From the NCBI GenBank assembly GCA_000955795.1, contig JYOB01000014.1:1-35409 (forward strand): 35,409 nt of DNA, read 5' to 3'. The notes under the pieces are model-generated. The model made no database searches and was not told the origin of the DNA. It saw nothing but the letters and a program-made list of their open reading frames with translations. Shown one piece after another: positions 12,919 through 28,996 of this stretch. Made by a program: the position numbers and the translations under genes. This stretch comes from Burkholderiaceae bacterium 26. Lineage in GTDB: Bacteria; Pseudomonadota; Gammaproteobacteria; Burkholderiales; Burkholderiaceae. Every line of letters starts with the position of its first letter. The first letter of the stretch is position 1.

Positions 12919-13044
12919 TCAGGCCACGGCCTGGCGGGGCAGCGCTTCGCTCAGGTCCGCCAGCGTGGGCGCATTGTCGGCGCCGAGTTGTCGCTCCGTC
13001 AGCACCACGCGCGCACAGACGACAACCTCGGCAGCAGGGCCCTC
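12919..13044 (-). pseudogene. Possible gene remnant (C-terminal fragment) in an otherwise gene-free stretch
   Basis: Within the 357-base gap 12792-13148, one minus frame reads 41 residues with protein-like composition, including VVVCARVVLTERQLG and PTLADLSEALPRQAVA, then a stop at 12919-12921. Upstream it is cut by an in-frame TAG at 13045-13047, with no start or ribosome site. It could be the tail of a lost gene or chance. I do not recognise the family. Nothing else was found in this gap. Confidence 0.25.
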
Positions 13045-13148
13045 CTATCGATTGAGATGGTGAATCGCGAAGCAAGGCTTTCCAAGCTGTCGTAAGCGCC
13101 GTAGTTGCACGCGTCTAACACGCCAATGCAAGAACATGGTGCTTGATG

Positions 13149-13892
13149 CTAGCTGCGTTCGTAAATTGGTACTTCCGTCGCGTAGAGGAAGAAGGACTGG
13201 GCCGGACGGTAGAACGTGGTGGTGGCGTTAGCGTTGATCGCGAGCAACGCGCGTTCATAGGCGCGGAATGCGCCAACAGACGACACATCATCGAACCAGA
13301 GACTGGCAACACCTTCGTAGACGGGCACATCCGTGGCACTGAAGTAGGCCAGCATGGCATTGAATTCCGGAACCTGTCTGTTATGTACGCAGCGTCGCAA
13401 TGCGGCTGCGGCAAGCGGCTCGGCGGCCAAGGCCAGCTCGTGCGCCCGCGACCATCGATCAAAGAACTCGGGTAGTGACAATCCTTCTGCAGCCCGCAGG
13501 TAGTGCAGAACCTTGGCCCCACATGCGCGTTTCGGAGTCACAACCGGCTGCTCCGCTTCCACCGCCACCAAACTGAGCGAAACGCTGGCGTCTGCGAAGT
13601 TGGCGGCATCAGGTCCAACCTTTGTACGCACGTGCTCATGTGCAAAGGTGGCGGACATGTCCTGCGCATTGTCCCAATACAGTTCCGTTACCGAATCCCG
13701 TGCAACCGTCATCGAATGCTCGGGTTCGGCGGTCGATCCGAACGCCGCATCGAAGACGTGGTTCTGTACATAGCGCCGCAGGGTGACGGGGTTCTCATTC
13801 GAGATCGCGCCATGCACGTGCTGTACATAGGCCACGTATTCGGCATGCGTCATGCCAGGGCGGCGGCAGACCGCAGCGATCATCTTGATCAT
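13149..13892 (-). CDS. EthD-domain protein (two-domain dimeric alpha+beta barrel)
   Basis: A 247-residue protein with an EthD-type ferredoxin-like domain. The first half starts MIKMIAAVCRRPGMTHAEYVAYVQHVHGAI, the classic EthD/polyketide-cyclase-like opening with a conserved histidine near 26-28. A second, weaker copy begins KVLHYLRAAEGLSLPEFFDRWSRAHELAL near residue 128. Such proteins act in ether and aromatic catabolism as decarboxylases, isomerases or accessory proteins. A good AAAGGA ribosome site precedes the ATG at 13892. It is the last gene of the minus arm, 40 bases after the aldehyde dehydrogenase. The exact reaction is unknown. Confidence 0.78.
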   Translation of the reverse strand: MIKMIAAVCRRPGMTHAEYVAYVQHVHGAISNENPVTLRRYVQNHVFDAAFGSTAEPEHSMTVARDSVTELYWDNAQDMSATFAHEHVRTKVGPDAANFADASVSLSLVAVEAEQPVVTPKRACGAKVLHYLRAAEGLSLPEFFDRWSRAHELALAAEPLAAAALRRCVHNRQVPEFNAMLAYFSATDVPVYEGVASLWFDDVSSVGAFRAYERALLAINANATTTFYRPAQSFFLYATEVPIYERS

Positions 13893-13932
13893 CGTTGTCC
13901 TTTGTGAGTTGAGGTTGGGCTATCCATCAGGC

Positions 13933-15402
13933 TCAAGCGGCGTCGAGGCCGTCCCAGCACAGATATTTGACCTCCAGGAACTCGTCGATACCGAGGTGCG
14001 AACCTTCGCGCCCCAGGCCGCTTTGCTTCACACCACCGAATGGCGCGACTTCGGTCGAGATCAGGCCGGTGTTGATTCCGACCATGCCCGACTCGATGCG
14101 GGCAGCGTTGCGCCAGATGCGGGCAGCGTCGCGGCTGTACAAATACGCGGCAAGTCCGTATTCGGTGTCGTTGGCCATGGCGATGGCGTCATCGTCGGTA
14201 TCGAAGCGGAATAGAGGCGCCACGGGGCCGAAGGTCTCCTCGCGGGCAATCAGCATATCGTGCGTGACGTCAACCAGCACGGTCGGCTCGAAGAAGTTGC
14301 CACCGAGCGCATGCCGGTTGCCACCGTGCAGAAGCCGCGCGCCTTTGTCTAGGGCATCGACCACGTGCTCTTCAACTTTTCGCACGGCCGCCGTGTCGAT
14401 CAGCGGGCCAAGCTGCACGTCTGCTTCCAGGCCGTTACCCGTACGCAGGCGGGCTACGCGTTCGGCCACGCGTTCGGCAAGCGCATCGTAAATGCTGGAC
14501 TGCACCAGCACGCGATTTGCGCTGATACACGCCTGCCCCGTGTTGCGGAACTTGGCTGCGACTACGCCATCGGCTGCGGCATCAAGATCGGCGTCGTCAA
14601 AGATAATGAATGGTGCGTTGCCGCCGAGTTCCATCGAGCATTTCTTCACTGTCTGTGCGGCTTGGGCCAGCAAGACACGACCGACTTCGGTCGAGCCCGT
14701 GAAGGTGAGCTTGCGGATCAGCGGGTTGGCCGTCAGCTCACCGCCGATCGCTCGCGTGTCGTTGCCCGTCACTACGCTGAAGGCACCGGCCGGAACACCC
14801 GCACGCTGTGCCAGTTCGGCAAGTGCCAACGCGGTCATCGGTGTCTGGCTGGCGGGCTTGAGCACCATCGTGCAGCCGGCGGCAAGCGCCGGCCCCGCCT
14901 TGCGCGTGATCATTGCGGCGGGAAAATTCCACGGCGTGATGGCTGCGCATACGCCGATCGGTTCGCGCAGCGCGACAACGCGCTGCGCTTCCTTGGCGCC
15001 TGGAATCACATCACCGCGCACGCGCGTTGCCTCTTCGGCAAACCAGCGCAGGAACGATGCGGCGTAGTCGATTTCGCCACGGGCTTCAGCCAGCGGCTTG
15101 CCTTCTTCCAGCGTGATGAGCGTTGCGAGATCTTCACGATGCGCCAACGTCAATTCGTACCACCGGCGCAGAACTTCACCACGATGCTTGGCGGTGGTAC
15201 GGCGCCAGGTGGTAAAGGCGCTATGCGCCGCATCGATGGCGCGGCGTACTTCCTCCTCGCGGCAGCGCGGCAGTTCTACGAGCAACGATTGATCGGCCGG
15301 GTTGTGCAGCGCATAACGACCGTGCGGTGTGCTTTCCACCCATTCGCCGGCGATGAAAGCGGCTTCGCGCCACAGCGTGGGATCTTTCAGAAGGTGCTTC
15401 AT
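13933..15402 (-). CDS. Aldehyde dehydrogenase, succinate-semialdehyde dehydrogenase (GabD) type
   Basis: A 489-residue NAD(P)-dependent aldehyde dehydrogenase. Landmarks are TPWNFPAAM with the catalytic asparagine (159), KPASQTP in the cofactor site, FTGSTEVG (glycine-rich), MELGGNAPFI with the general base Glu258, and NTGQACISANR with the nucleophile Cys292. The C-terminus has APFGGVKQSGLGREGS. Length and motifs fit the succinate/glutarate-semialdehyde dehydrogenase branch. It sits 12 bases after the DapA-like gene with an AAGGAG ribosome site, so it probably oxidises the aldehyde released by that enzyme or by another step of the cluster. Acting on free succinate semialdehyde alone is the alternative. 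Confidence 0.9.
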   Translation of the reverse strand: MKHLLKDPTLWREAAFIAGEWVESTPHGRYALHNPADQSLLVELPRCREEEVRRAIDAAHSAFTTWRRTTAKHRGEVLRRWYELTLAHREDLATLITLEEGKPLAEARGEIDYAASFLRWFAEEATRVRGDVIPGAKEAQRVVALREPIGVCAAITPWNFPAAMITRKAGPALAAGCTMVLKPASQTPMTALALAELAQRAGVPAGAFSVVTGNDTRAIGGELTANPLIRKLTFTGSTEVGRVLLAQAAQTVKKCSMELGGNAPFIIFDDADLDAAADGVVAAKFRNTGQACISANRVLVQSSIYDALAERVAERVARLRTGNGLEADVQLGPLIDTAAVRKVEEHVVDALDKGARLLHGGNRHALGGNFFEPTVLVDVTHDMLIAREETFGPVAPLFRFDTDDDAIAMANDTEYGLAAYLYSRDAARIWRNAARIESGMVGINTGLISTEVAPFGGVKQSGLGREGSHLGIDEFLEVKYLCWDGLDAA

Positions 15403-15414
15403 GGTTGTGCTCCT

Positions 15415-16434
15415 TCAGCAGGGGAAGCGGCCAACCATGAAGGCTTCATCCGGGTCCGACGTGACGGGCAGGCCCGACGCCACCAGACCTTGGCGCAGCA
15501 TCTTCATCAGGCGATCCGGCACGCGCATGGCTGGCGCGCGCAGGGGGCCACCGTTAAAGCCGGCGAGCCAGTCCTGATACTTCCACATGGTGCGGTTGAG
15601 CACGCCGGTGCCGCCCGCGTAGGTTTGCGCGGCCGCGCCGTTGGCGCTGCGTGCCGGATTGACCTTCCAGTACATCGCCATGGCCTCTTCCCACCGGCCG
15701 GTGCGTGCCAGTTCAAACGCCTTCGGGTAGTAGTCACCCATCCACGCGGTGTTGCTGGTGCCGGAGAACTGCAGCTCCATCAGACTCATCAGCGGAATCG
15801 CATCGCCTTCGATCGGGCAACTGATGACGACCTCGTTGCGGAAGTGGTGGTACATCTCGCAGATGCCAGCCGGCAGCGGGAATCCTTGCTCGGATTTGAT
15901 CGCAACGATGTTGGGGCAATCGTCGAGCAGCCGGCGCACCAGGCTGACCGGCATGCCCGCCGGATGTACACGCTCGAAGCCCCACAGCGGGATCGGGAAC
16001 AGCATCACCGCAAGGTCGGTCGCGTCACAGAAGGTCTTCGTGTAGTTGTAGATTTCTTCCTCGCTCGTTGGCCAGAACTGGGGCGGGTAAGACAGCAGGA
16101 CGATGTCGGCGCCAGCTTTCTCGGCCAGCTTTACGGCCTCAATGTTTTCGGCCAGCGTGCCAAACGCCGCATGGAAGAAGAGGCCAAGCCGGTTGCCTGC
16201 GGTCTCGCGTGCCCAGGCCGTGAACTGGGCGTTTTCTTCGGGCGTGATGGCAACTTCGCTGCACAGCAACGTGTAGCTGAACCCAAGCTTGGTTGCCAAT
16301 TCAATGTCGTGGCGGATGCCGTGTTCGTTCAGGCGCTTCAAGTCGGCGCTGTAGCTGGGTATGGTGACGGCCGAGCAGCCGATCAGGTGTTCGCGCGCCC
16401 AGGCGCGGGCGTCGGATTTCTTGTAGGTGGCCAT
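15415..16434 (-). CDS. Divergent dihydrodipicolinate synthase (DapA)-family lyase/aldolase
   Basis: A 339-residue class I (Schiff-base) lyase of the DapA/N-acetylneuraminate lyase superfamily. The lysine is clear in NIVAIKSEQG (Lys180). Other conserved positions are altered: the usual G-T-T-G-E loop is replaced by LLCSEVAITPEE (57-68), and the Y-N-x-P tyrosine region reads MLFPIPLWGFERVHP with no tyrosine. It is longer than DapA (about 290 residues), as are hydratase-aldolases of the NahE type. It precedes the aldehyde dehydrogenase by 12 bases and follows the cyclodeaminase-like gene by 32. A retro-aldol or dehydratase role in a catabolic pathway is inference; lysine biosynthesis is unlikely. 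Confidence 0.82.
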   Translation of the reverse strand: MATYKKSDARAWAREHLIGCSAVTIPSYSADLKRLNEHGIRHDIELATKLGFSYTLLCSEVAITPEENAQFTAWARETAGNRLGLFFHAAFGTLAENIEAVKLAEKAGADIVLLSYPPQFWPTSEEEIYNYTKTFCDATDLAVMLFPIPLWGFERVHPAGMPVSLVRRLLDDCPNIVAIKSEQGFPLPAGICEMYHHFRNEVVISCPIEGDAIPLMSLMELQFSGTSNTAWMGDYYPKAFELARTGRWEEAMAMYWKVNPARSANGAAAQTYAGGTGVLNRTMWKYQDWLAGFNGGPLRAPAMRVPDRLMKMLRQGLVASGLPVTSDPDEAFMVGRFPC

Positions 16435-16466
16435 CGTTGGCGTCTCCTTGGGAATGTGGGGGTGAT

Positions 16467-17477
16467 TTATTTGGCGATCGGAACAATGCTGGCCGGCAGG
16501 GGCACGCCGCGCCCTTGCTCCTTGGCATGTGCAAAGAGCATCTCGGCAATGACGATGTCCTGAAGCGCGGACCCGACAGACTTGTAGAGCACGATGTCGC
16601 TGTCAGCCTGGCGGGGCTTGATCTCTCCCGCAGCGAGCGCCGAGAGCGGCACCAGCTTGCTGGCGATGGGCACGCCTGCACGCGAGGCGGCGATGGCATC
16701 GCCAGTATCGTGGGCGACTTCCTGTGGCATGTCGGCCACGATGCAGGCGGCGCGCGCCATCGTTTCCTCGTCGACTTCGCGCTGTTCCGGCAGCGTGGAA
16801 CCCAGCGAGACCACCGTAGCGCCCGGCGACAGCCACGCGCCGCGCAGGACGGGTGACTCGTCCCGACTGCGCGCGGCACAGATGACGATATCCGCACCCT
16901 CCACAGCCGCTTCAGGCGACTCCGATGCGGCGATGTCCAGTGCAGTGCGAAACGATTCGGCAAAGCGCTCGCGGCTCGCAGGCGTGGGGCTGTATACGCG
17001 CACGGATTGCAGTGTGCGCACCGCACGCAGGCAATCGAGTGCATTGCGTGCTTCAAAGCCAGAGCCGATGATCGCCACGTGCAGCGGCCGATTGGGTGCT
17101 AGCAGGTCCACCGCCAACGCCACGGTCGCTGCCGTACGCAGGCCGGTGACCCTGTTGCCATCGACCAATGCACTCAGGGCCATGGTCTTCTGATCGAACA
17201 ACGAGATCAGGTAACTTGCCCGGCGCGCACGCGGGGATGCCGCGATCAGCTTGCAGCCCATGTGGCCGCCGGCCGGCGACACGGCGGTCAGGCTGCGCAG
17301 CCAGATGCCGTCACCACGTGCCATCGAGCGCGGCGGCACCATGGCGTCGGACGTGGGTTTAGCGTAGGCCTTGGCGAGGGCAGCGACGGCCGAAGGCCAG
17401 TCGGCAAGCGATGCGACATCGGCATCGCTCAGGAACAACGTGGGGGCGAGCAGTTCGCTCGGTTGCAGGTCGGACAT
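16467..17477 (-). CDS. Ornithine cyclodeaminase / mu-crystallin family protein
   Basis: A 336-residue NAD(P)-binding protein of the OCD/mu-crystallin family, which includes ornithine cyclodeaminase, ketimine reductases, and alanine and opine-type dehydrogenases. Motifs are GHMGCKLIAASP, TGLRTAATVALAVDLL, the Rossmann loop VAIIGSGFEARN, and KSVGSALQDIVIAEMLF near the C-terminus. A GTG at 17525 would extend the protein by 16 residues; the ATG at 17477 better fits the family. It starts 115 bases downstream of the second LysR gene. In this context it may reduce or oxidise an imine or amino-acid-like intermediate, which would suit a nitrogen-containing substrate; this is inference. Confidence 0.85.
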   Translation of the reverse strand: MSDLQPSELLAPTLFLSDADVASLADWPSAVAALAKAYAKPTSDAMVPPRSMARGDGIWLRSLTAVSPAGGHMGCKLIAASPRARRASYLISLFDQKTMALSALVDGNRVTGLRTAATVALAVDLLAPNRPLHVAIIGSGFEARNALDCLRAVRTLQSVRVYSPTPASRERFAESFRTALDIAASESPEAAVEGADIVICAARSRDESPVLRGAWLSPGATVVSLGSTLPEQREVDEETMARAACIVADMPQEVAHDTGDAIAASRAGVPIASKLVPLSALAAGEIKPRQADSDIVLYKSVGSALQDIVIAEMLFAHAKEQGRGVPLPASIVPIAK

Positions 17478-17592
17478 GGCGCTGGGCGTGGAAGTCAACG
17501 GCCAGCCGACTATAGAAGGCCGCACCTGCGCGAGGTACTGCCTGACAGCGAAAGCAGCTATGCACCAGATCGATAGCTGCGGAAGATGCCGC

Positions 17593-18546
17593 TCAGGTGA
17601 TGTGAGACTCCGCTACGCGATGGATCAGGCGGCGCACTTCCAGCGTGGCCCGCGTGTGGGGTCGGAGTGGGGATTCCGCCAAGACCACGAAGCGCTCAAG
17701 CAGAGGCTGGACGATCTGCGACGACGCCAGCCGCGCATCCAGCATGCCGGGCTGCACGGATGCGATAGCGTAGCCGCCGCCGGCTGCGGCAATCTCGTAT
17801 TGCAGGCGGACGGAGTCGGCCTCTACCGCCACTTGCAGTGGCAAGGCGTGGTCTGTGGCCAGACGATCCAGCCGTGCACGCAACAGATGAGGGCGACTGG
17901 GTACGACAAGAGGAACACCGGCCAGCGCAGTCAGCGCGACATCGCTCTTGCTGACAAGGGCATCCCCTCGTCGGCCAACCAGATGCAGAGGTACGCGCGC
18001 AAGCACGTATGCGTCACCAATGCTCGCCTCGTCTTCCCGCAGAACAATGCCCATGTCGAGCCGGCCGTCCCGCAATTGCTCTTCAAGCTGCGCGCTGGCA
18101 CCTTCCACCAGGTGTAGCCGCACGCCGGGCAGTTGCTCGCGCACGGCGGCGAACAGCGGCGCTGCAAATTGCCCGACCGCTGAAGGCAGCAAGCCGACCA
18201 GCACCTCCCCAACGGGTTGGCCGCGCGCATTGCGAATGTCATCGGCAAGAGCGTCGGCCTCATCCACAAGACGGGCGACACGCGGCAGTGTCTGCTCACC
18301 AAACTCTGTGAGCACGACACCGCGACCGGTTCTGCGAAACAGGCGCTGCCCACACTGCTGCTCAAGCTGTGCAATGTTGCGGCTGACCATGGACTGCGGC
18401 ATATCGAGCATCGCGGCGGCCTTGCTCAGGCTTCCTGATGCGGCAACGCGTACAAACAGCAGCCAGCGTGGGTCGATGATCGGTAGCGTGCTGAGCATGT
18501 CCGGCATGACCACCTTGCCGGGCTTTGGCGAGGGTGTCGGCTTCAT
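17593..18546 (-). CDS. LysR-type transcriptional regulator (second of an overlapping pair)
   Basis: A 317-residue LysR regulator. The winged HTH is IDPRWLLFVRVAASGSLSKAAAMLDMPQSMVSRNIAQLEQQCGQRLFRRTGRGVVLT split over about residues 23-78, followed by a linker helix and a periplasmic-binding-fold effector domain (about 100-300). Its ATG at 18546 overlaps the stop of the upstream LysR gene (ATGA), which fixes the start although the frame stays open far upstream. The DNA-binding domain differs clearly from its neighbour's, so it is not a recent duplicate. Likely role: control of the adjacent catabolic genes. Confidence 0.88.
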   Translation of the reverse strand: MKPTPSPKPGKVVMPDMLSTLPIIDPRWLLFVRVAASGSLSKAAAMLDMPQSMVSRNIAQLEQQCGQRLFRRTGRGVVLTEFGEQTLPRVARLVDEADALADDIRNARGQPVGEVLVGLLPSAVGQFAAPLFAAVREQLPGVRLHLVEGASAQLEEQLRDGRLDMGIVLREDEASIGDAYVLARVPLHLVGRRGDALVSKSDVALTALAGVPLVVPSRPHLLRARLDRLATDHALPLQVAVEADSVRLQYEIAAAGGGYAIASVQPGMLDARLASSQIVQPLLERFVVLAESPLRPHTRATLEVRRLIHRVAESHIT

Positions 18547-19499
18547 GGCTGCGGTGCGGACGGTGATACCGGCGGCGATGCACCAGGCGCGGCAGCGTCC
18601 ATGGCCGCCGCCGCTTCCTTGATAAGCGCACGCAGCCAGCGCAGGCCAAGATCGGCGCTGCGGTGCTTGTGCCACTGCATGGATTGCTCCATGCGAGGAA
18701 TGGGCACCGGCACCGGGCGAATCGTGATGGGCAGGCTGCGGACGGCCTGCGCGGCGAGCCGCTTGTGCATGGTGGCAATCCGGTCGGTGCCGATCAACAG
18801 GTGCGCGGGTGCCACAAAGCTGAATGTGGTGGTCTCTATCCTCCGGACGATGCCCAGCTTGTGCATGAACCATTGCTCCAGCGCGGAGTGTTCGTCCCCA
18901 GGCTGCACGACGATGTGGCCGGCGCCCATGTAGCGCTCGGCGGTCAGTTCGCCCCTGGCCAGCGGGCTTTGGTCCCACAGCACGCAACAAAAGGTTTCCT
19001 CAAACACGACCTCGGCTGGGTGCTCGGCCGGGCAGTAGTCCTTGGGGATGATAAGCAGGTCGACTTCACCGCGCTCCAGTGCACGCTCGGGGTAGGCGAC
19101 CTGCGGGCGCAGTTCAAAGCGGACACCCGGCGCCTGGTGGTATGCGAGCCGCAGCAGATGCGGCATCAGGGTCATCGTCGTGTAGTCCGAGACCAGGAGA
19201 CGGAAGATCCGATCCGATTGGCGTGGCAGGAAGGCCGGCTGTGCGGCGACGGTGGCATCGATCCGCACAAGGATGTCGCGCACGGGGTCTTTCAGGCCTT
19301 CTGCCCGTGCCGTCAGTTCCATCTTGCGGCCGACTTGGACCAGCAGCTCGTCGTCAAAGTACTCGCGCAGCCGCGCCAGCGCATTGCTCATTGCGGCCTG
19401 GCTCAGATGGACCTTCTCTGCGGCGCGGCTGATGTTCTGTTCGGTCAGGAGAGCGTCGAGGGCGACGAGCAGATTTAGGTTGAGCTTGTTAAAGCGCAT
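18543..19499 (-). CDS. LysR-type transcriptional regulator, NodD/NahR-like
   Basis: A 318-residue LysR regulator that starts MRFNKLNLNLLVALDALLTEQNIS and continues AAEKVHLSQAAMSNALARLREYFDDELLVQVGRKMELT, the N-terminus typical of the NodD/NahR/LinR subgroup, whose members respond to flavonoids, salicylate or other aromatic compounds. The effector domain runs from about 95 to 300; the tail is proline/alanine-rich. It is divergently oriented to the outer-membrane protein gene at 19805 across a 305-base regulatory region. Its stop overlaps the start of a second LysR gene. It is the best candidate activator of the plus arm, by the usual LysR divergent rule. Confidence 0.9.
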   Translation of the reverse strand: MRFNKLNLNLLVALDALLTEQNISRAAEKVHLSQAAMSNALARLREYFDDELLVQVGRKMELTARAEGLKDPVRDILVRIDATVAAQPAFLPRQSDRIFRLLVSDYTTMTLMPHLLRLAYHQAPGVRFELRPQVAYPERALERGEVDLLIIPKDYCPAEHPAEVVFEETFCCVLWDQSPLARGELTAERYMGAGHIVVQPGDEHSALEQWFMHKLGIVRRIETTTFSFVAPAHLLIGTDRIATMHKRLAAQAVRSLPITIRPVPVPIPRMEQSMQWHKHRSADLGLRWLRALIKEAAAAMDAAAPGASPPVSPSAPQP

Positions 19500-19584
19500 G
19501 GGCGCCGTCTCCGTTGAAGGTCTTCTCCCGAAGCGATTGGGGCACCCCCCGCAGCGTGGTCTTGTGGTCTCGCGCTAGGGTTTC

Positions 19585-19602
19585 CCCTGAAAGTATTCAG
19601 GG
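19585..19602. promoter_or_regulatory. 18-bp palindrome, candidate LysR operator
   Basis: CCCTGAA-AGTA-TTCAGGG is a perfect 7+7 palindrome with a four-base centre, 86 bases upstream of the NodD-like LysR gene and about 200 upstream of the outer-membrane protein gene. The TGAA...TTCA half-sites span T-N10-A, one base short of the classical LysR T-N11-A. The rest of the 305-base intergenic region (19500-19804) contains no gene. Confidence 0.45.
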
Positions 19603-19766
19603 CGCCAATACAGCGGATGGAAACAATCAATTTGAGCCATTCGCGAGGGCATCTTAATCTAAACCCGTCCTGGCACACACGCGAATTGCGGTGCACAACC
19701 CAGGATGATGTGCGCCCCAAATAGACGGCAGCAGCGGCTTGTTTGCGCGCACTCAACGACAAAACA

Positions 19767-19786
19767 GACACCCGATACGAGGTGTC
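19767..19786. promoter_or_regulatory. Inverted repeat in the leader of the catabolic operon
   Basis: GACACC (19767-19772) pairs with GGTGTC (19781-19786) around eight bases, ending about nine bases before the AGGAGA ribosome site of the gene at 19805. It could be an operator half-site pair, or an RNA hairpin near the start of translation. The stem is short and there is no T-tract, so it is not a terminator. Confidence 0.3.
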
Positions 19787-19804
19787 GAAAAGTGAGGAGA
19801 CAAC

Positions 19805-20737
19805 ATGAGCAAACGACTAGCCGCGGCGTGCACTGCCGCAGGCTGCATGACGCTGGCCGCGCTGGCGTCGAACACCGCGAATGCATTTGAAGGGGGCGTT
19901 TCGCCGTATCCAGCCGGTGCTGCGGGCACCAGCATCGCAGCCATGCCGCCGATCCCTGGGTTGTTCGTGCTGGAGCAATTCAGTTACAGCCACTCCAACG
20001 GGTTATACGACAACAGCGGCAACAAACTGCCGATTCCGTTCAGTATCTCTGCGCCGTCGATGACGACGCGCTTGCTGGCGGCGTATCCGGTCACCGTGCT
20101 GGGTGCGGGTCTGTATTCCCAACTGGTTGTGCCGGTGGTCTCGCTGCATACGGACATTGTCGGGCAGAGCCAACGCCATAACGGCTTGTCGAATATCACG
20201 GTATCGCCTGCCATCTTGAAGTGGTCGGTCACGCGCAACCTCGCCATCGTCACGGGCTTTGATATCGCGCTCGCCAACGGTGCATACAACCAGGACCGCC
20301 CAAGCGTGGCAGTGGGCTACACGTCATGGCAGCCGGTCTTCTCGTTTCGTTACAACGTGCCCAACGGCATTGACGTTGGCATGACCAACCGCTTGCTCAT
20401 CAACCGGGAAAACGGCGACACCGGATACCGCTCGGGTTCGGCCTATGTGGCGGATTTCACGGCGGGGTGGAACTTCGGCAAATGGAAAGTCGGCGTAGTG
20501 GGCGGCTATCTGAACCAGTTCACCGACGACAAGCTCAATGGCGCGACCGTCGCCAACAACCGTGCCCGCAGCTTGGCACTGGGGCCATCCATTGCGTACG
20601 ACGCGGGCGCCTTCAATATCAACATCAACTATCAGCAAGGGGTGTATGCAGCCAACACATCCAAGAGCAGCGCAGTGTGGCTGAACATCGCCATCCCGCT
20701 GTGGGCGAAGCCGCCTGGCCCGGGCAACGGCATCTGA
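19805..20737 (+). CDS. Outer-membrane protein of the phenol/MetA-degradation (SphA-like) transporter family
   Basis: A 310-residue exported protein with an N-terminal signal peptide (basic MSKR, hydrophobic core, cleavage expected near TANAF, residues 24-28). The mature part has alternating hydrophobic strands rich in glycine and aromatic residues, ending in the strand AVWLNIAIPLW. The pattern fits the Phenol_MetA_deg family of outer-membrane proteins found in aromatic-compound operons and thought to admit hydrophobic substrates. An AGGAGA ribosome site precedes the ATG. It opens the ten-gene plus-strand operon, 21 bases before the hydrolase gene, which suggests an entry channel for the pathway substrate. 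Confidence 0.85.
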   Translation: MSKRLAAACTAAGCMTLAALASNTANAFEGGVSPYPAGAAGTSIAAMPPIPGLFVLEQFSYSHSNGLYDNSGNKLPIPFSISAPSMTTRLLAAYPVTVLGAGLYSQLVVPVVSLHTDIVGQSQRHNGLSNITVSPAILKWSVTRNLAIVTGFDIALANGAYNQDRPSVAVGYTSWQPVFSFRYNVPNGIDVGMTNRLLINRENGDTGYRSGSAYVADFTAGWNFGKWKVGVVGGYLNQFTDDKLNGATVANNRARSLALGPSIAYDAGAFNININYQQGVYAANTSKSSAVWLNIAIPLWAKPPGPGNGI

Positions 20738-20758
20738 AAACGCATTAAAGGAATCGGG

Positions 20759-21919: not shown

Positions 21920-21947
21920 TCATCAACCCATGACCGATAGGACTTCC

Positions 21948-22904
21948 ATGAACATCATCGGACCCGATGCACTGCTGTTTGGCGTCGACGACGTTGCCGC
22001 GTGCGCGCAATATCTGACCGACTACGGCCTGAAGCCGGTTGGCGTGACCGCCGCCGGAGGCCGCTTCGAGGCGCTGGACGGCACGTTCATCCGCATTGCG
22101 CACAAGGACGATGCGACCTTGCCGCCCTCGCTCGGCACCGCGAGCTTCCTACGCCAGACCATCTACGGCGTGGCCGACCAGCAGACGCTGGAGGCGATTG
22201 CCGCAGAGCTGCAGAAAGACCGCCCCGTCGAACGCCATGCGGATGGCTCCATCCACGCTGTGGACGATGCGGGCTTTGCACTGGCGTTTCAGGTGACGGT
22301 TCGCCGCCCGCTGGAGTTACCGGCGGAGCGTGTCAACGCACCGGGCGCACCTGCGCAGCGGCCGGCGAACGTTGTAGGCGTGGACGGCGATGCCGTGGTG
22401 CAGGCCCGCACGCTCTCGCACGTTGTCTACTTCGTGCCGGATGCCGCGAAGGCGGAGGCGTTCTACGTCAAGCGCCTGGGCTTTGTCTGCACCGATCGCT
22501 TTGTCGGCGTGGGGCCTTTCTTGCGCCCTGCCGGCACGCTCGACCACCACACGCTTTTCATGATCGAGACGCCGCCATTCATGAAGGGCTGTGAACATTT
22601 CACGTTCCATCTGGGCGGCCCGACCGAGGTGATGCAGGCCGGGGCGCGACTGGTCGAGAAGGGCTATCAATCGTTCTGGGGCCCGGGGCGCCATCGCTTC
22701 GGCTCCAACTGGTTCTGGTACTTCAACAGCCCGCTCGGCTGCCATGTGGAATACGACGCCGACATGGACTTGCACGATACCGACTGGATCGCACGCGAAG
22801 CACCCATGGGGGCGGACACCTCGCAACTGTTCCTGTTCCAGCATCGCGAGAACTGGGCACCGGGCGGTCCGCCGGCAACCGATGCGGCGCACGCCGCATC
22901 CTGA
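21948..22904 (+). CDS. Two-domain extradiol-type (VOC) ring-cleavage dioxygenase
   Basis: A 318-residue VOC-superfamily protein with two repeated modules (about 1-125 and 150-290), the plan of type I extradiol dioxygenases such as BphC. In the C-terminal module the 2-His-1-Glu iron site is credible: His158 (LSHVVYF), His217 or His221 (CEHFTFH) and Glu268 (GCHVEYD), with spacing close to BphC. It therefore probably cleaves a catecholic or dihydroxypyridine-like ring next to the hydroxyls. An ATG at 21930 is also in frame, but the one at 21948 follows AGGACTTCC. It lies 28 bases after the hydrolase gene and 17 before the Rieske ferredoxin gene. Confidence 0.83.
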   Translation: MNIIGPDALLFGVDDVAACAQYLTDYGLKPVGVTAAGGRFEALDGTFIRIAHKDDATLPPSLGTASFLRQTIYGVADQQTLEAIAAELQKDRPVERHADGSIHAVDDAGFALAFQVTVRRPLELPAERVNAPGAPAQRPANVVGVDGDAVVQARTLSHVVYFVPDAAKAEAFYVKRLGFVCTDRFVGVGPFLRPAGTLDHHTLFMIETPPFMKGCEHFTFHLGGPTEVMQAGARLVEKGYQSFWGPGRHRFGSNWFWYFNSPLGCHVEYDADMDLHDTDWIAREAPMGADTSQLFLFQHRENWAPGGPPATDAAHAAS

Positions 22905-22921
22905 GGGATCGGAACTCAGCC

Positions 22922-23290
22922 ATGTCGACATCCAACCGCGTACCGCTATGCCAGTTGCATGAATTGATCGATGGCCATTCGCGTGGTTTTGACCCGCGCG
23001 GTATCGGCCAGGACACGGTCTTCGTGGTGCGGCGAGGCGAGGCACTTCATGCCTACCGTGATGCCTGCCCGCATCAGGGCGGAACGCCAATGGCATGGCG
23101 CAAAGATGCCTACCTCAATGGCGACGGCACCCGCATCGTCTGCCATGCGCATGGCGCGCAATTCGATATCGGCTCCGGCGTTTGCGTTCTTGGCCCCTGC
23201 CTGGGACAAGCGCTGGAGCCCATCAAGATCGAGGTGGCCGAAAACGGCACCGTGTTCTTGATGCCAGACAACAAGGAGACACCACAATGA
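22922..23290 (+). CDS. Rieske-type [2Fe-2S] ferredoxin
   Basis: A 122-residue stand-alone Rieske protein. The cluster ligands are Cys49 and His51 (CPHQGG) and Cys74 and His77 (CHAHGAQFD), giving C-x-H-x22-C-x2-H. There is no membrane anchor and no catalytic oxygenase domain. No Rieske oxygenase alpha subunit or reductase gene occurs anywhere in the window. It lies between the extradiol dioxygenase and the FAD monooxygenase and overlaps the latter by four bases (ATGA at 23287). It could donate electrons to an enzyme encoded elsewhere, or keep the extradiol iron reduced as XylT-type ferredoxins do; both are inference. Confidence 0.9.
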   Translation: MSTSNRVPLCQLHELIDGHSRGFDPRGIGQDTVFVVRRGEALHAYRDACPHQGGTPMAWRKDAYLNGDGTRIVCHAHGAQFDIGSGVCVLGPCLGQALEPIKIEVAENGTVFLMPDNKETPQ

Positions 23291-24417
23291 CATCCCCAGT
23301 GCAGAAGATCCTCGTGATTGGCGGCGGCTTTTCCGGCATGGCCGCAGCCATCCAATGCACCAAGCTCGGCATGCAGGTCGACATGGTCGAGATTGATGCG
23401 AAATGGCGGGCCTATGGCGCCGGCATCAGCATCGGTGGCCCAACGCTGCGCGCCTTGAAAACTATTGGCGTACTCGATGCATTCCGAGAGCGCGGCTACT
23501 GTGGCGATGGCGTCAATCTTTTCACATCGAGCGGCCAGGCGCTGGGGCAGCTACCCACGCCGCGTGTGGCCGGACCAGATGTGCCGGGTGGCGGCGCAAT
23601 CATGCGCCCGGCGCTGGCTGACATCCTGGCCAAGGCGACGGTCGCTGCGGGCGTGAAGGTGCGCCTGGGCTGCACATTCACAGCGATTGAGCAACGCGCC
23701 GACGGGGTGGACGTTGCCTTTACCGATGGCACGCAAGGTCGCTACGACCTCGTGATCGGCGCCGATGGGTTGTACTCGAAGGTGCGCGAGGCAGCGTTTC
23801 CCAATGCACCCACGCCGCAGTACACCGGCCAGGGTGTCTGGCGTGCCGTGGTTCCTCGCCCCGCAGACATTACGTGCGCAACGATGTGGCTCGGGCAGAA
23901 GGTCAAGACAGGCGTCAACCCCGTATCGCAAGACGAGATGTACCTGTTCGTGACCGAAGACCGTGAGGCGAACGAGTACATCGACCCGCAACGTTGGCCG
24001 CAGATGCTGTCGGATCTGCTCGCACCGTTCAGCGCGCCGTTGATGCAAACCATCCGCGCGCAGATCTCCGCACAGTCGCTCATCAACTATCGCCCACTGG
24101 AAAGCCTATTGATGCCGCGCCCGTGGTTCAGCGGCCGCATCGTGCTGATCGGGGATACGGTCCACGCCACCACACCGCACATGGCGGCCGGTGCCGGTAT
24201 CGGCCTGGAAGACGCCATCGTGCTAGCCGAGGAATTGGAGCGCGCTGCCACGCTCGATGCCGCACTGCAAGCCTTCCAGGATCGCCGCTGGGACCGTTGC
24301 CGCATGGTGGTGGAAAACTCCGGCCGCCTGGGCGAGATCGAGATTGCCGGCGGTGACAAGGCCGAGCACGCCCGCATCATGCGCGACACGCTCATGAGCC
24401 TGGCACAGGCCATCTGA
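23287..24417 (+). CDS. FAD-dependent aromatic-ring hydroxylase (PHBH / salicylate-hydroxylase type)
   Basis: A 376-residue class A flavin monooxygenase. The FAD Rossmann motif is GGGFSG (12-17), the second fold segment is YDLVIGADGLYSKVR, and the flavin-ribityl motif is IGDTVHATTPHMAAGAGIGLEDA (about 287-309). All three define the p-hydroxybenzoate hydroxylase family, which hydroxylates phenolic or hydroxypyridine rings using NAD(P)H and oxygen. Translation is coupled to the Rieske gene by ATGA. It is the likely first oxidative step, making the ortho-dihydroxy ring for the extradiol dioxygenase. Resemblance to 6-hydroxynicotinate monooxygenase or salicylate hydroxylase could not be ranked. 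Confidence 0.88.
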   Translation: MTSPVQKILVIGGGFSGMAAAIQCTKLGMQVDMVEIDAKWRAYGAGISIGGPTLRALKTIGVLDAFRERGYCGDGVNLFTSSGQALGQLPTPRVAGPDVPGGGAIMRPALADILAKATVAAGVKVRLGCTFTAIEQRADGVDVAFTDGTQGRYDLVIGADGLYSKVREAAFPNAPTPQYTGQGVWRAVVPRPADITCATMWLGQKVKTGVNPVSQDEMYLFVTEDREANEYIDPQRWPQMLSDLLAPFSAPLMQTIRAQISAQSLINYRPLESLLMPRPWFSGRIVLIGDTVHATTPHMAAGAGIGLEDAIVLAEELERAATLDAALQAFQDRRWDRCRMVVENSGRLGEIEIAGGDKAEHARIMRDTLMSLAQAI

Positions 24418-24433
24418 CACGGCGGAGACCTCC

Positions 24434-25606
24434 ATGGAATCGAATCTTGAGACCGGCGGCGCAGCGCGATTGGGCGGCCGGGGCACGTTCGCGCTACTGG
24501 CTGCACATTGCGCCGGCATGGTCGACATGGTCGCCTTGCCGGTATGGGTTGGCACCTTGATCGGAAGCTATCACCTCGACCCGCAAGAGGCGGGTGGCTT
24601 GGTAACGTTGTTTTTAGCGGCGGCCGTGGCAAGCAGCGTAGTCTTCGCGCCACGACTGAATCGTCTGCCGGCCCGTGCTTCTGTATCTGCCGGCTTTGGG
24701 GTGGCCATGCTGGCGTTTCTCAGCATGGCAGCCGTGGGCGACAGTTATGCGGCCATGGCAGGTTTGCATGCTGTTGCGGGTTTCGCCGTGGGATGCAGCC
24801 TGAGCTTTACGCACGGCACAATCGGGCGCAGTCGCAATCCGCATCGGTTGTTTGCTGCGGCGGGCTTGGCGCTGGGCTGCTTTGCCATCGCTTTTCTGGG
24901 TGTGACACCGGGCTTGGTCGCGTTGCACGGTGGATCGATCCTCTTCCGCGTCTTCGCGGGTGTCATGGCGATTGCCGCCGTGCTGTGTGCGGCGGCGTTT
25001 CCGGCCCTTGAGGCGCCGCGCCTTGAGATGTCCGCTGCCGAGCCGAGCTTTTCGCCAGCCGTATGGAGCGGCATGCTGGGCGTGGCCTGCATGGCAGTGA
25101 CCCAGGCAATGGTGTTCAGCTTTGTCGAACGCATTGGCGTGGATCGAGGTTTCGGCCTGGCCGCCGTCACCTCCGTATTGATCGCAACGGGGTTGGTGAA
25201 CCTGCTGCCAGCGCCAATGGCGGGGTTCCTGGAGTTGCATGTGCCGGCCCGGCGGGTTGTGCTGGGTGGGCCGCTCGTGCAGGCAACACTTGCGCTCGTC
25301 ATCACGCAGAGTTCTGCGCTGGCCCCGTATGCGGCGGCCGGCGCGGTGTTCGTTGCCGTCATGATCTTCACGCACACCTTCGCGTTTGGCGTGCTGGCCC
25401 GGATGGACGTCACCGGCCGCGCCGTGGCCGCCACGCCCGCCATGCTGATGACTGGCGCCGCCGTCGGGCCGATCCTTGGCGGCACGCTGGTCAAGTTTCT
25501 TGGCTACGGCAGCCTTGGCATCGCCGCTGTCTTGATGGCCATTGCCGCCATGCTGTGTTTCTCACGTCTTGAACGCCGCGCTGTGCCCGCAGGAGCCTCC
25601 GCATGA
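24434..25606 (+). CDS. MFS transporter
   Basis: A 390-residue membrane protein with about twelve hydrophobic segments and a polar N-terminus. Early helix 1 reads HCAGMVDMVALPVWVG, and the loop after helix 2 (RLNRLPARASVS) is a weak version of MFS motif A. A GGAGA ribosome site precedes the ATG, 16 bases after the FAD-monooxygenase stop. Its stop overlaps the cyclase-family gene (ATGA). Its place in the operon suggests uptake of the substrate or export of a toxic intermediate; direction and specificity are not visible. It is not closely similar to the MFS gene at 3224. Confidence 0.85.
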   Translation: MESNLETGGAARLGGRGTFALLAAHCAGMVDMVALPVWVGTLIGSYHLDPQEAGGLVTLFLAAAVASSVVFAPRLNRLPARASVSAGFGVAMLAFLSMAAVGDSYAAMAGLHAVAGFAVGCSLSFTHGTIGRSRNPHRLFAAAGLALGCFAIAFLGVTPGLVALHGGSILFRVFAGVMAIAAVLCAAAFPALEAPRLEMSAAEPSFSPAVWSGMLGVACMAVTQAMVFSFVERIGVDRGFGLAAVTSVLIATGLVNLLPAPMAGFLELHVPARRVVLGGPLVQATLALVITQSSALAPYAAAGAVFVAVMIFTHTFAFGVLARMDVTGRAVAATPAMLMTGAAVGPILGGTLVKFLGYGSLGIAAVLMAIAAMLCFSRLERRAVPAGASA

Positions 25607-26412
25607 AGCCAACCCGACGCTTTGTCGATCTCTCCATCTATCTGGAGAACGACGTGCTCTCCGACCCGCCGCCGCTGGCACCGAAGATCACCTACCAGAA
25701 GCATGCCGATACCTTGCCCGAGTTCATGGCCATGCTGCCCGGCACGAAGCCTGAGGACTACCCCGGTGGCGAAGCCGCTGCGGCCGAGTGGGTCACGCTC
25801 ACCACGCACAGCGGCACGCATCTCGATGCGCCCTGGCACTTCCATTCGACCATGGACGCCACCCTTGGCGAGGCCAAACCGTCGATCACCATCGACGAAG
25901 TTCCACTGGAATGGTGCTTCCAGCCCGGCGTGAAACTCGACTTCCGGCACTTCCCCGACGGCTACGTGGTGACGGCCGCCGATGTGGAGGCAGAGCTTGC
26001 ACGCATCGGCCACACGCTGCAGCCGCTCGACATCGTCGTGGTCAACACGCGGGCGGGCGCGCGCTATGGGCACAACGACTACGTCAACGCAGGCTGCGGC
26101 ATGGGCTACGAGGCGACGATGTACCTGCTCGAACGCGGCGTGCGCCTGACCGGAACCGATGCATGGAGCTGGGATGCACCGTTCTCCTACACCGCCAAGA
26201 AGATCGCCGAGACGGGCGATACCTCACTGATCTGGGAAGGGCACAAGGCCGGTCGCGACATTGGCTACTGCCACCTGGAGAAGCTGCACAACCTCGAGGC
26301 CCTGCCTCCGCATGGATTTGTCATCAGTTGCTTTCCGCACAAGATTCGCGGGGCATCCGCAGGGTGGACGCGCGCGGTCGCCATCTTTAACGCTGAACGG
26401 GACATTGCATGA
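25603..26412 (+). CDS. Cyclase-family metal-dependent hydrolase (kynurenine formamidase / isatin hydrolase-like)
   Basis: A 269-residue protein of the cyclase/KynB superfamily with the metal-binding signature HSGTHLDAPWHF (69-80: His69, His73, Asp75 and His79). Later conserved segments are VVVNTRAGARYG, GMGYEATMYLLERGVRLTGTDAWSWDAPF and GVRLTGTD-type turns. Known members open amide or lactam bonds: N-formylkynurenine in KynB and isatin in isatin hydrolase. That suggests a nitrogen-containing or lactone intermediate in this pathway. It overlaps both neighbours by ATGA and has an AGGAG ribosome site inside the MFS gene. It is longer than KynB (about 210 residues), closer to isatin hydrolase-type proteins. 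Confidence 0.85.
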   Translation: MKPTRRFVDLSIYLENDVLSDPPPLAPKITYQKHADTLPEFMAMLPGTKPEDYPGGEAAAAEWVTLTTHSGTHLDAPWHFHSTMDATLGEAKPSITIDEVPLEWCFQPGVKLDFRHFPDGYVVTAADVEAELARIGHTLQPLDIVVVNTRAGARYGHNDYVNAGCGMGYEATMYLLERGVRLTGTDAWSWDAPFSYTAKKIAETGDTSLIWEGHKAGRDIGYCHLEKLHNLEALPPHGFVISCFPHKIRGASAGWTRAVAIFNAERDIA

Positions 26413-27005
26413 GCTTTCCAACAATTCAACGTATCGTGACGGGCCACGACGCCGACGGGCGCGCGGTGATCGTCTCGCAAGGGCCATTGCCGACCGTGGT
26501 GGAAATTGCGGCCATTCCCGGCACGGTGTTCCACGAAGTGTGGAGCACGTCGGGCAACCCGGTGCCGATCGACAACGGCGCGGATCCCACCGTGGGCGCG
26601 CTGATGTTGCCGCCGCCAAAGCAAGGCACGCGCTTCCGATTTGTCGATATTCCGCCCGATACCTCGGAGTTCCTGGCGCGTGGCGCGACCCGGATGCAGG
26701 AAGCGTTCACCCAGGTGGGCGATGCACATGCATCTACCGTGCGCGCCGATTCGCCGCATCCGCTGATGCATCGCACGGAATCGATCGACTACGGCGTGGT
26801 GATCGATGGCGAGATGACGCTGGTGCTCGATGATTCCGAGGTGGCGCTTGCACCGGGAAGCGTGGTCATTCAACGCGGCACCAATCACGCCTGGGCCAAC
26901 CGCTCCAGCCGGCCGTGCAGGATGCTCTTCGTGCTGATCGACGGCGTGTACGACCCGGCCATCGCCGAGGCATTGCAGGCCCGGACGCAACCGGAGGCGC
27001 AATGA
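26409..27005 (+). CDS. Cupin-domain protein
   Basis: A 198-residue protein with one cupin barrel in its C-terminal half: SIDYGVVIDGEMTLVLDDSEVALAPGSVVIQRGTNHAWANRSSRPCRMLFVLI (in parts, about 118-172). Cupin motif 2 keeps a histidine (GTNHAWAN), but motif 1 has DYGVV where metal-binding cupins have H-x-H, so the usual metal site is incomplete. A histidine nearby (HRTESIDYG) might substitute. It may be an isomerase, decarboxylase or non-catalytic protein rather than a dioxygenase such as gentisate dioxygenase, which is also about twice as long. It is ATGA-coupled to both neighbours. Confidence 0.8.
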   Translation: MSFPTIQRIVTGHDADGRAVIVSQGPLPTVVEIAAIPGTVFHEVWSTSGNPVPIDNGADPTVGALMLPPPKQGTRFRFVDIPPDTSEFLARGATRMQEAFTQVGDAHASTVRADSPHPLMHRTESIDYGVVIDGEMTLVLDDSEVALAPGSVVIQRGTNHAWANRSSRPCRMLFVLIDGVYDPAIAEALQARTQPEAQ

Positions 27006-28009
27006 AGTTCGCCACATTGCCCGGCGAGGGAACCGACGGTCGCCTTGTGTTGGTGTCGCGCGATCTTCAGCGCGCTGTCGATGCCACTCCAATTGCCGCC
27101 ACGTTGATCGATGCACTGGAGCGTTGGGAGGATGTTGCGCCCAAGCTGCAGGCGCGCTACGACGATCTCAATGCGGGGCGTATTGCTGACGCACGTGCAT
27201 TTGATGCTGCCGCTTGCCTGGCACCGCTGCCGCGTAGTCCGCAATGGTGCGATGGCTCGGCGTTTCTCAACCACGGTCGGCTGATGGAGCGCGCATTCAA
27301 TACGCCGCCGATTCCAGATTTCGCCACCATCCCCGTGATGTACCAGGGTGCGAGCGACGACTTTCTCAGCCCGACGCAGGATGTGCCGTTGCCCAGTGAG
27401 GCCGACGGTATCGATTTCGAAGGCGAGTTTGGTGTGGTCGTCGGTCGTATACCGATGGGCGTCTCTGCCACGCAGGCCTTGGACCACATCCGCCTGCTCG
27501 TGCAGATCAACGATTGGAGCCTGCGCGCATTTGGGCCACGCGAGATGAAGACAGGTTTTGGGTTTCTGCAGGCCAAACCGTCGACCAGCTTTGCGCCGGT
27601 CGCCATCACGCCCGACGAGTTGGGCGGAAATTGGCGCGACGGCCGCGTGCAACTGCGTCTGCATATCGAATGGAATGGTCACTGGTTTGGTCATCCATGT
27701 GGCAGCGAAATGAATTTCAGCTTTGGCGACCTCATTGCACATGCCGCGCGTACACGCCAACTGTCCGCTGGAACCATCATCGGCTCCGGCACGGTATCGA
27801 ATGTGAGCCGCACAGCTGGATCGGCATGTATTGCAGAGCGGCGTGTGATCGAGATCATCGACGAAGGCGAAGCCAAGACTGGCTTCATGCGCTTCGGCGA
27901 TCAGGTCAGGATGATGGCGCGCGACGCAGAAGGTGAGATGCCGTTCGGCATCATTGAGCAGCGTGTTGTTCAAGCGGGTGCAGCTAGCGCAAAAGAGGAG
28001 CAACGATGA
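27002..28009 (+). CDS. Fumarylacetoacetate hydrolase (FAH)-family protein
   Basis: A 335-residue FAH-superfamily enzyme. Metal-binding positions are visible in DFEGEFGVVVG (the E-x-E pair) and QINDWSLRAFG (the aspartate). The closing motif GTIIGSGTVSN is also family-typical. Members hydrolyse C-C bonds of 1,3-diketo acids or act as hydratases and decarboxylases late in meta-cleavage pathways. The N-terminal 75 residues form a cap domain like that of true fumarylacetoacetases and related 320-340-residue proteins. It is ATGA-coupled to the cupin and epimerase genes. It fits a lower-pathway step converting the ring-opened product to central intermediates. Confidence 0.87.
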   Translation: MKFATLPGEGTDGRLVLVSRDLQRAVDATPIAATLIDALERWEDVAPKLQARYDDLNAGRIADARAFDAAACLAPLPRSPQWCDGSAFLNHGRLMERAFNTPPIPDFATIPVMYQGASDDFLSPTQDVPLPSEADGIDFEGEFGVVVGRIPMGVSATQALDHIRLLVQINDWSLRAFGPREMKTGFGFLQAKPSTSFAPVAITPDELGGNWRDGRVQLRLHIEWNGHWFGHPCGSEMNFSFGDLIAHAARTRQLSAGTIIGSGTVSNVSRTAGSACIAERRVIEIIDEGEAKTGFMRFGDQVRMMARDAEGEMPFGIIEQRVVQAGAASAKEEQR

Positions 28010-28956
28010 GAGCCTTGGTGACGGGGGCCAATGGTTTCGTAGGATCAGCGTTGGTTCGCCGGTTATTGCGCGATGGGGTCGCTACCACAAGCGATGTCAC
28101 AGAGTTGCTGCTTGTGGACCAACAGATCGACGCCATCCCCGCGGATGCCCGCGTTACTGTCATCAACGGAGACTTTGGCGCGCCGCACACACTTGATGCT
28201 GTGCTGTCAAAGCCCGTGGATCTCGTCTTTCACTTGGCGAGTGTGCCGGGCGCACAGGCCGAAGCCAATCGGGATCTGGGCGACCGGATTAACTTGCATG
28301 GCACCCTGGCGTTGTTCGAATGCCTCGCGAAACAGCCGAGCGTTCATGGGACCGTGCCGCGAGTCGTCTTTGCCAGCAGTGTCGCGGTTTATGGAGTCCC
28401 TCTGCCGTCGCACATGGACGAGCATTCGGCGGTACACCCCACCATCAGTTACGGCGTGCACAAGTTAGTTGGCGAGCAATTGTTGGCCGATTGGACGCGT
28501 CGCGGCTCGGTCGATGGCCGCTCGTTGCGCTTGCCGGGCATCGTGGCGCGGCCCGGATTGTCCCTAGTACACGGCTCCGCCTTCATGAGTGCGATCTTTC
28601 GCGCCGCTCAACATGGGCAACCCTATGTATGTCCTGTCTCGCCATCGGCAACAGCATGGTGGATGTCGCGTGCCTGCTGTGTCGACAACTTGGTACATGC
28701 TGCGCGGTTGTCTTCGGACGGTCTACACGCGGAGCGCGTCTGGACGCCCCCCGTGCTGCGATTGGAGGTTGGTGCGCTCGTCGACGCGCTGACGCATAGG
28801 TTCGGCCCGATGCAAATCAGCTATGCCCCCGAGGATGGGATCGAGCGATTGTTTGGCCGCCAGCCACCACTGATCGATCGTCGCGCTGTCGCGGCTGGCT
28901 TTCAACACGACGGCACTGTCGAGGCGTTGATCGAACGGGCGCTGATGGAGGGCTGA
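28006..28956 (+). CDS. NAD-dependent epimerase/dehydratase-family oxidoreductase (DenD-like)
   Basis: A 316-residue extended short-chain dehydrogenase. The NAD-binding motif is TGANGFVG (6-13), then LVFHLASVPG, the serine segment FASSVAVYG and the catalytic pair in YGVHK. The overall pattern resembles D-erythronate dehydrogenase (DenD) and related hydroxy-acid dehydrogenases more than sugar-nucleotide epimerases, but I cannot confirm this. It is the last gene of the operon, coupled by ATGA. A hairpin GGCTGAA / TTCAGCC (28951-28968) overlaps its stop codon. Confidence 0.85.
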   Translation: MRALVTGANGFVGSALVRRLLRDGVATTSDVTELLLVDQQIDAIPADARVTVINGDFGAPHTLDAVLSKPVDLVFHLASVPGAQAEANRDLGDRINLHGTLALFECLAKQPSVHGTVPRVVFASSVAVYGVPLPSHMDEHSAVHPTISYGVHKLVGEQLLADWTRRGSVDGRSLRLPGIVARPGLSLVHGSAFMSAIFRAAQHGQPYVCPVSPSATAWWMSRACCVDNLVHAARLSSDGLHAERVWTPPVLRLEVGALVDALTHRFGPMQISYAPEDGIERLFGRQPPLIDRRAVAAGFQHDGTVEALIERALMEG

Positions 28957-28996
28957 AATGGTTCAGCCAGCCCCCATGGCCGCCTTCGGCGACATA
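28951..28996 (+). terminator. Possible terminator of the catabolic operon
   Basis: GGCTGAA (28951-28957) pairs with TTCAGCC (28962-28968) around the four-base loop ATGG, overlapping the TGA of the epimerase gene. A second small stem GCCG / CGGC follows at 28979-28990, then the AT-rich stretch GACATATTTT. Neither has a full T-tract directly after a strong stem, so this is a weak call. Confidence 0.35.

Follow-up and report, generated by a model that had tools for sequence, protein, structure and literature searches.

The closest described systems are two clusters for flavonoid breakdown. In Herbaspirillum seropedicae, naringenin is degraded by way of the fde operon, whose LysR-type regulator FdeR lies divergent from fdeA and is required for expression (PMC10799723). 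The A ring is hydroxylated at C8 by FdeE, with FdeD as its Rieske partner, and is subsequently opened by FdeC (PMC11303751, PMC11069340, PMC8552027); GxGxxG and GD motifs are given for FdeE (PMC11303751), and FdeA is matched by a phenol-degradation protein in a published table (PMC8552027). For the ifc cluster of Variovorax sp. V35, it has been reported that the isoflavone-specific hydroxylase IfcA shares 36.3% identity with the H. seropedicae FdeE, that every gene of an isoflavone hotspot including the hydrolase homologue 59470 is upregulated by daidzein, and that disrupting the FdeB homologue leaves daidzein degradation unaffected (PMC11069340). The same paper identifies compound X3 as 2-hydroxy-5-(4-hydroxyphenyl)-4H-pyran-4-one, with the gene for the step from X2 to X3 unknown in V35, and describes 2,6-dihydroxypseudooxynicotine hydrolase as performing C-C hydrolysis. 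Here, we report on a two-armed gene cluster of Burkholderiaceae bacterium 26 (assembly GCA_000955795.1, contig JYOB01000014.1, positions 1 to 35,409; this whole stretch of 35,409 nucleotides is called the window). We recognise the right arm as an fde operon of the known type; the left arm is a conserved accessory module for which we found no role assigned. We read the cluster as a Ralstonia flavonoid-catabolism island in which the fde operon is joined by a functionally tied accessory arm (probability about 0.8), the extra arm probably widening the range of flavonoids that can be degraded.

An earlier note on this DNA, made from the letters alone, had described an aromatic or N-heteroaromatic catabolic cluster that matched no pathway. 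All the gene families it listed were found by Pfam in open frames spanning 13149-28956 and had been placed correctly, and its view of one aromatic-compound catabolic unit combining ring hydroxylation, extradiol cleavage and hydrolysis is borne out. The absence of a matching pathway is not, since the right arm is the fde (flavonoid/naringenin degradation) operon; the gene set is thus already assigned to a named pathway for that arm only.

The evidence for the right arm is operon-wide. In Herbaspirillum sp. Sphag64 (L155) the gene order R-A-B-C-D-E-F-G-H-I-J is that of the window, with one extra EthD match between I and J, and identities to the window proteins are R 51, A 31, B 80, C 74, D 57, E 66, F 55, G 91, H 74, I 69 and J 48%. 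B. anthina shows the same order, interrupted only by an EthD gene that separates B from C. Taking the likely gene starts, which were judged by eye from translations and upstream of which several open frames begin, five neighbouring pairs of the plus arm (D/E, F/G, G/H, H/I and I/J) overlap by 4 bases, so that this arm resembles one operon. Compared with the hydroxylases from loci that have R and A-G, the window hydroxylase shows 64-81% identity (99% in R. pickettii); its translation contains GGGFSG, corresponding to GxGxxG, and GDTVHATTPHMAAG, a GD motif with T in place of A. The cyclase (G) is 86-99% identical in loci also showing R and A-F. In FdeC, two His and one Glu of BphC (1han) are conserved in the alignment, such a 2-His-1-Glu set being the iron site of extradiol dioxygenases. 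The closest PDB match of FdeB is 2,6-dihydroxypseudooxynicotine hydrolase (2jbw, E 1.4e-17). A third type of FdeC cluster was seen in Burkholderiaceae (L080-L087), with the order (I)-(J)-C-D-B-E and identities of 53-57% for FdeC, 62-66% for FdeB and 47-49% for the hydroxylase.

The left arm centres on a triad of genes encoding an ornithine-cyclodeaminase/mu-crystallin-family (OCD) oxidoreductase, a DapA-like lyase and an aldehyde dehydrogenase, and its association with FdeC was followed through a family sample of 398 Burkholderiaceae genomes (DapA-like match at E <=1e-60, FdeC match at E <=1e-90). The DapA-like gene was present in 18 of the 398 genomes and FdeC in 39; all 18 also have FdeC (hypergeometric 9e-21, the window's own genome included), and all 20 DapA-like loci lie within 16.4 kb of it. 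The stretches compared, each about 20 kb long except for one of 14 kb, yield together with the window 48 FdeC loci, of which 27 show FdeB only, 11 DapA only, 10 both and none neither (Fisher 1.6e-5). Locus comparison places both arms together in Robbsia, Trinickia and Paraburkholderia as well, a recurrence in other genera that argues against a chance gathering of genes. The two arms are conserved together in part of the Burkholderiaceae, in agreement with the single catabolic unit of the earlier note; 27 of the 48 FdeC loci in the family sample lack the DapA-like gene. Judged by this linkage, the left arm belongs to the same system as the fde arm.

The loci without FdeB differ in their hydroxylases. 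The window hydroxylase is 33-37% identical to the hydroxylases of FdeB-less loci, among them ten of the 11 family-sample loci with DapA only, a distance that matches the published one between IfcA and FdeE (36.3%), IfcA itself being outside the comparison. When the FdeB-less label, as assigned from the stretches, is mapped on a tree of 31 DapA proteins, it needs 3 changes, one of them resting on a long Corynebacterium branch. One genome (G381, L047-L049) has FdeC in triplicate; one copy belongs to a full fde operon and the other two lie near a triad. In L048 and L129 the OCD protein and the aldehyde dehydrogenase are 75-78% like those of the window and the DapA-like protein just 51-53%, the latter grouping with the clade from FdeB-less loci; these mixed identities point to gene exchange inside the triad.

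Linkage extends beyond the family sample. Two Bradyrhizobium plasmid loci hold FdeC, FdeD, OCD, DapA, aldehyde dehydrogenase and hydroxylase genes with no FdeB match, a Roseomonas plasmid links the triad with FdeC with FdeB present, and a Corynebacterium plasmid locus has the triad with a more distant dioxygenase. At the order level the DapA-like gene was found in 3 of 399 genomes and FdeC in 5 of 399, the window's own included; at the phylum level, where FdeC was not searched, the DapA-like gene was found in 2 of 388 genomes (the window's own and G805). The second LysR gene stays with the triad in several genera, and in R. pickettii (L136) and P. lacunae (L100), too, the EthD gene adjoins it.

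By blastn alignment, both arms form one insertion beside glmS in Ralstonia. The alignment of the window to a Ralstonia genome that lacks the cluster (G058) breaks at window positions 13017 and 29566, delimiting one 16.5-kb block; the distance from glmS to the patatin gene is 2.2 kb in G058 versus 17.2 kb in the window, and G058 carries about 0.9 kb of its own where the window has both arms. Among the matches listed there are 16 same-genus genomes; the cluster is present in two of them (G000 and G113) and absent from the other 14. The right break (29566-29590) lies 24 bases past the glmS stop codon, a site that we take to be the classic Tn7 target place. In two further Ralstonia genomes (G121 and G137) the glmS-patatin interval measures about 19 and 14 kb, and in these stretches neither the island by blastn nor its proteins found a match. 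A scan found no tRNA genes in the window. GC content across the cluster (0.60-0.65) is not distinct enough to argue from.

The DapA-like protein belongs to a distinct subfamily. The Schiff-base lysine, the active-site Tyr and the GTTGE motif are the residues that define classical DapA members. Lysine 180 is invariant in 14 of 14 relatives and aligns with the DHDPS lysine in the alignment with PDB chains. The predicted structure has a mean pLDDT of 60.6, falling below 50 in residues 259-339 and in some loops, and a fold search placed it in the DapA superfamily, PhdJ ranking 9-10 after DHDPS and a sugar-acid dehydratase, a ranking that does not discriminate function. In the fde and ifc literature in open PMC, as far as its available text goes, the left arm was not found described, which is not a claim that it is undescribed. 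The terms 'dihydrodipicolinate', 'cyclodeaminase' and 'aldehyde dehydrogenase' have zero occurrences in the main text of PMC11069340, its gene table and supplement lying outside this count, and no title on fde in Ralstonia appeared among the matches listed from the open PMC literature.

A mechanism can be proposed in which roles for the right arm are carried over by homology. FdeR would sense a flavonoid and switch on fdeA-J, and FdeE with FdeD would hydroxylate C8 of the A ring. FdeC would then open this ring beside the new hydroxyl, between C8 and C8a, to give a pyranone with a four-carbon side chain. Where a 5-hydroxyl is present the side chain would be an acylpyruvate, which FdeB may cut off the pyranone as oxaloacetate, and the cyclase, cupin, FAH-family enzyme and dehydrogenase would presumably open and shorten the remainder. 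With substrates of the daidzein or liquiritigenin type, which have no 5-hydroxyl, ring opening would leave a CH=CH-CO-COOH chain that FdeB should not be able to hydrolyse. By analogy with the naphthalene hydratase-aldolases, the DapA-like enzyme might split this chain into pyruvate and an aldehyde, the aldehyde dehydrogenase could oxidise the latter, and decarboxylation would yield a 2-hydroxy-4-pyranone. The left arm may thus, as a tentative suggestion by analogy, provide a second route, used for isoflavones or 5-deoxyflavonoids, by which the A ring is stripped after opening. It is conceivable, if somewhat doubtful, that the triad's new DapA subfamily is the pyruvate-releasing lyase of the missing X2-to-X3 step, and that loci with both FdeB and the triad degrade both A-ring classes. 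The unaffected daidzein degradation in V35 upon disruption of the FdeB homologue, the identity of X3 and the geneless step from X2 to X3 all fit this proposed mechanism.

Several observations weigh against the reading of a single island with tied arms and against this scheme. FdeA and FdeR are just 31 and 51% identical to the Herbaspirillum sp. Sphag64 proteins, and the Herbaspirillum identities all refer to that strain, H. seropedicae SmR1 being absent among the best 80 of 458 relatives that form the named set. The family-sample counts take no account of kinship. In G381 the DapA-only locus lies 20 kb from another FdeC copy that is accompanied by FdeB, and a P. hospita plasmid has an FdeB-less FdeC locus as well as a full fde operon, the triad lying about 24 kb from the latter. 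Of the 80 FdeC loci in this named set (the best 80 of 458), the DapA-like gene is seen in 9, and 3 (L131, L142 and L150) show neither FdeB nor DapA; the genome of L131 has another copy with FdeB (L109), and L142 is a 5-kb contig. Outside the family, one genome (G571) has the DapA-like gene and FdeC 1.8 Mb apart, and another (G538, 84% complete) has the former with no FdeC match. The triad of G805 has no FdeC match in its 20-kb stretch, the rest of that genome not having been searched for FdeC, and in Variovorax plasmids the triad is accompanied by cupin, FAH and epimerase genes, with no FdeC match in the stretch. In the DapA-like protein, Phe146 stands in place of the classical active-site Tyr in 14 of 14 relatives, and the GTTGE motif is absent in the alignment of these relatives and PDB chains; with the lysine kept and both of these gone, it is not a classical member. 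The OCD-family gene, finally, has no part in the proposed scheme.

Another role, about as tentative as the first, would keep the left arm as an isoflavone module and place its action later, on the C ring, where the aldehyde dehydrogenase would oxidise an aldehyde derived from the opened, decarboxylated 2-hydroxy-4-pyranone while the DapA-like and OCD proteins cut or reduce the remaining oxo-acid. The two products that IfcD forms from X3, C10H10O3 and C10H10O4, differ by one oxygen (PMC11069340), which we read as an aldehyde and its acid, and the Variovorax plasmid triad, which adjoins cupin, FAH and epimerase genes without FdeC, also speaks for this later role; taken alone, however, such a role leaves unexplained why the DapA-like gene is present in all 11 FdeB-less FdeC loci of the family sample. 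It is improbable that the left arm merely travels beside fde as a catabolic operon in its own right. A triad without an FdeC match in the stretch, as found in Variovorax, Novosphingobium (L016) and G805, the DapA-like gene of G538 and the 27 of 48 family-sample FdeC loci without a left arm would speak for independence. Complete linkage in the family sample (18/18 genomes, 20/20 loci) speaks against it, as does linkage in the two Bradyrhizobium plasmids and the Roseomonas plasmid, whose differing gene orders indicate that this is not one frozen block.

The nitrogen-containing substrate of hydroxypyridine or indole type that the earlier note favoured is very unlikely. Its three clues, namely a hydrolase whose best PDB match is a nicotine-pathway enzyme and cyclase and OCD families whose names recall action on nitrogen compounds elsewhere, amount to fold-level resemblance. 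The cyclase scores 27.7 bits versus an arylformamidase cut-off of 223.05, the OCD-family protein falls below all 13 NCBIfam cut-offs among the matches listed, and neither meets an N-specific family cut-off. The homologue of the nicotine-type C-C hydrolase, 59470, sits in the published, daidzein-upregulated isoflavone hotspot (PMC11069340). Lacking family-level support and set against the operon-wide fde match, the N-heteroaromatic reading was rejected.

Table 1. Features of the two-armed cluster, in window coordinates.
Feature	Position	Strand	Support
Whole insertion, both arms and little else	13018..29565	.	blastn of window vs Ralstonia G058
EthD-domain protein, last left-arm gene	13149..13892	-	PF07110 E 1.9e-20, two stretches
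Aldehyde dehydrogenase, succinate-semialdehyde-dehydrogenase subfamily	13933..15402	-	PF00171 E 4e-172; TIGR01780 695.6 bits (cut-off 646.35)
DapA-like lyase, distinct subfamily	15415..16434	-	PF00701 E 1.4e-11
OCD-family oxidoreductase (likely start 17480, open frame to 17525)	16467..17480	-	PF02423 E 1e-42
Second LysR-type regulator (likely start 18507, open frame 17593-18990)	17593..18507	-	PF00126, PF03466
FdeR, LysR-type regulator, divergent from fdeA	18543..19499	-	Pfam; position and orientation shared with related fde loci
Operator-like core GATGGAAACAATCAATTT in fdeR-fdeA gap	19616..19633	+	Conserved block in 29-gap alignment
fdeA, outer-membrane porin (Phenol_MetA_deg)	19805..20737	+	PF13557 E 7.7e-42
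fdeB, alpha/beta C-C hydrolase	20759..21919	+	2jbw E 1.4e-17; Ser/Asp/His aligned
fdeC, two-domain extradiol dioxygenase (likely start 21948)	21948..22904	+	PF00903; aligned to BphC 1han
fdeD, Rieske ferredoxin	22922..23290	+	PF00355 E 3.8e-12
fdeE, FAD-dependent flavonoid 8-hydroxylase homologue (likely start 23287)	23287..24417	+	PF01494 E 9e-28
MFS carrier (position F)	24434..25606	+	PF07690 E 1.3e-13
Cyclase-family metal hydrolase (position G)	25603..26412	+	PF04199 E 8.7e-37
Cupin (position H)	26409..27005	+	PF07883 E 6.7e-11
FAH-family hydrolase (position I; likely start 27002)	27002..28009	+	PF01557 E 1.3e-34
NAD-dependent epimerase/dehydratase-family dehydrogenase (position J)	28006..28956	+	PF01370 E 1.2e-26

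The fdeR-fdeA intergenic gap is 305 bp long and contains a block that is conserved across 29 distinct aligned gaps; these come from loci in which R and A are each >55% identical. Allowing up to 3 mismatches, GATGGAAACAATCAATTT has one match in the window versus 0 in 100 shuffles; a second copy of this FdeR-type operator core was looked for across the window and not found. The form AATGGATNNAATCCATT is present in 24 of 175 loci, some of which overlap one another. The core resembles, in our estimation, the rhizobial nod box. This likeness fits FdeR being called NodD-like, as in the title of a reference in PMC10799723. Scans of the window gave 1 promoter-like site versus 3.2 expected and 15 terminator-like sites versus 12.0 expected, numbers that are uninformative. 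A further gene association involves L172, L008 and L015. DUF1302/DUF1329/MMPL-type genes are annotated beside fde genes in Azospirillum and Diaphorobacter, where no FdeA porin match was seen; genes resembling this set, judged by position and first residues with no Pfam run, also adjoin the triad of G805.

A cluster first described as having no pathway hence becomes part of a named one with a concrete gap, the published isoflavone route having one step without a gene. The pattern of FdeB or DapA would predict which flavonoids each cluster can use, and is relevant to the handling of plant signals by root bacteria. NahE and PhdJ are trans-o-hydroxybenzylidenepyruvate hydratase-aldolases. Like the DapA-like protein they belong to the DapA superfamily, with a vinylpyruvate side chain as the putative shared kind of substrate, but they are only 14-16% identical to the window protein, which has Phe for Tyr and no GTTGE. 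FdeB shares its fold family and the aligned Ser/Asp/His with 2,6-dihydroxypseudooxynicotine hydrolase (2jbw), whereas its gene context is that of flavonoids. The ifc cluster of Variovorax sp. V35 resembles the window in its FdeC-type dioxygenase, FdeB-type hydrolase, cupins and A-ring opening logic, as far as the available text describes it (PMC11069340), and differs in having an IfcA-type hydroxylase where the window has an FdeE-type one, the IfcA distance being taken from the published figure. The fde locus of Herbaspirillum sp. Sphag64 differs from the window in having no left-arm match in its stretch except the EthD match beside J. With the fde operon of H. seropedicae SmR1, the window shares a divergent LysR regulator, porin, dioxygenase, Rieske protein and FAD-dependent 8-hydroxylase in their published roles.

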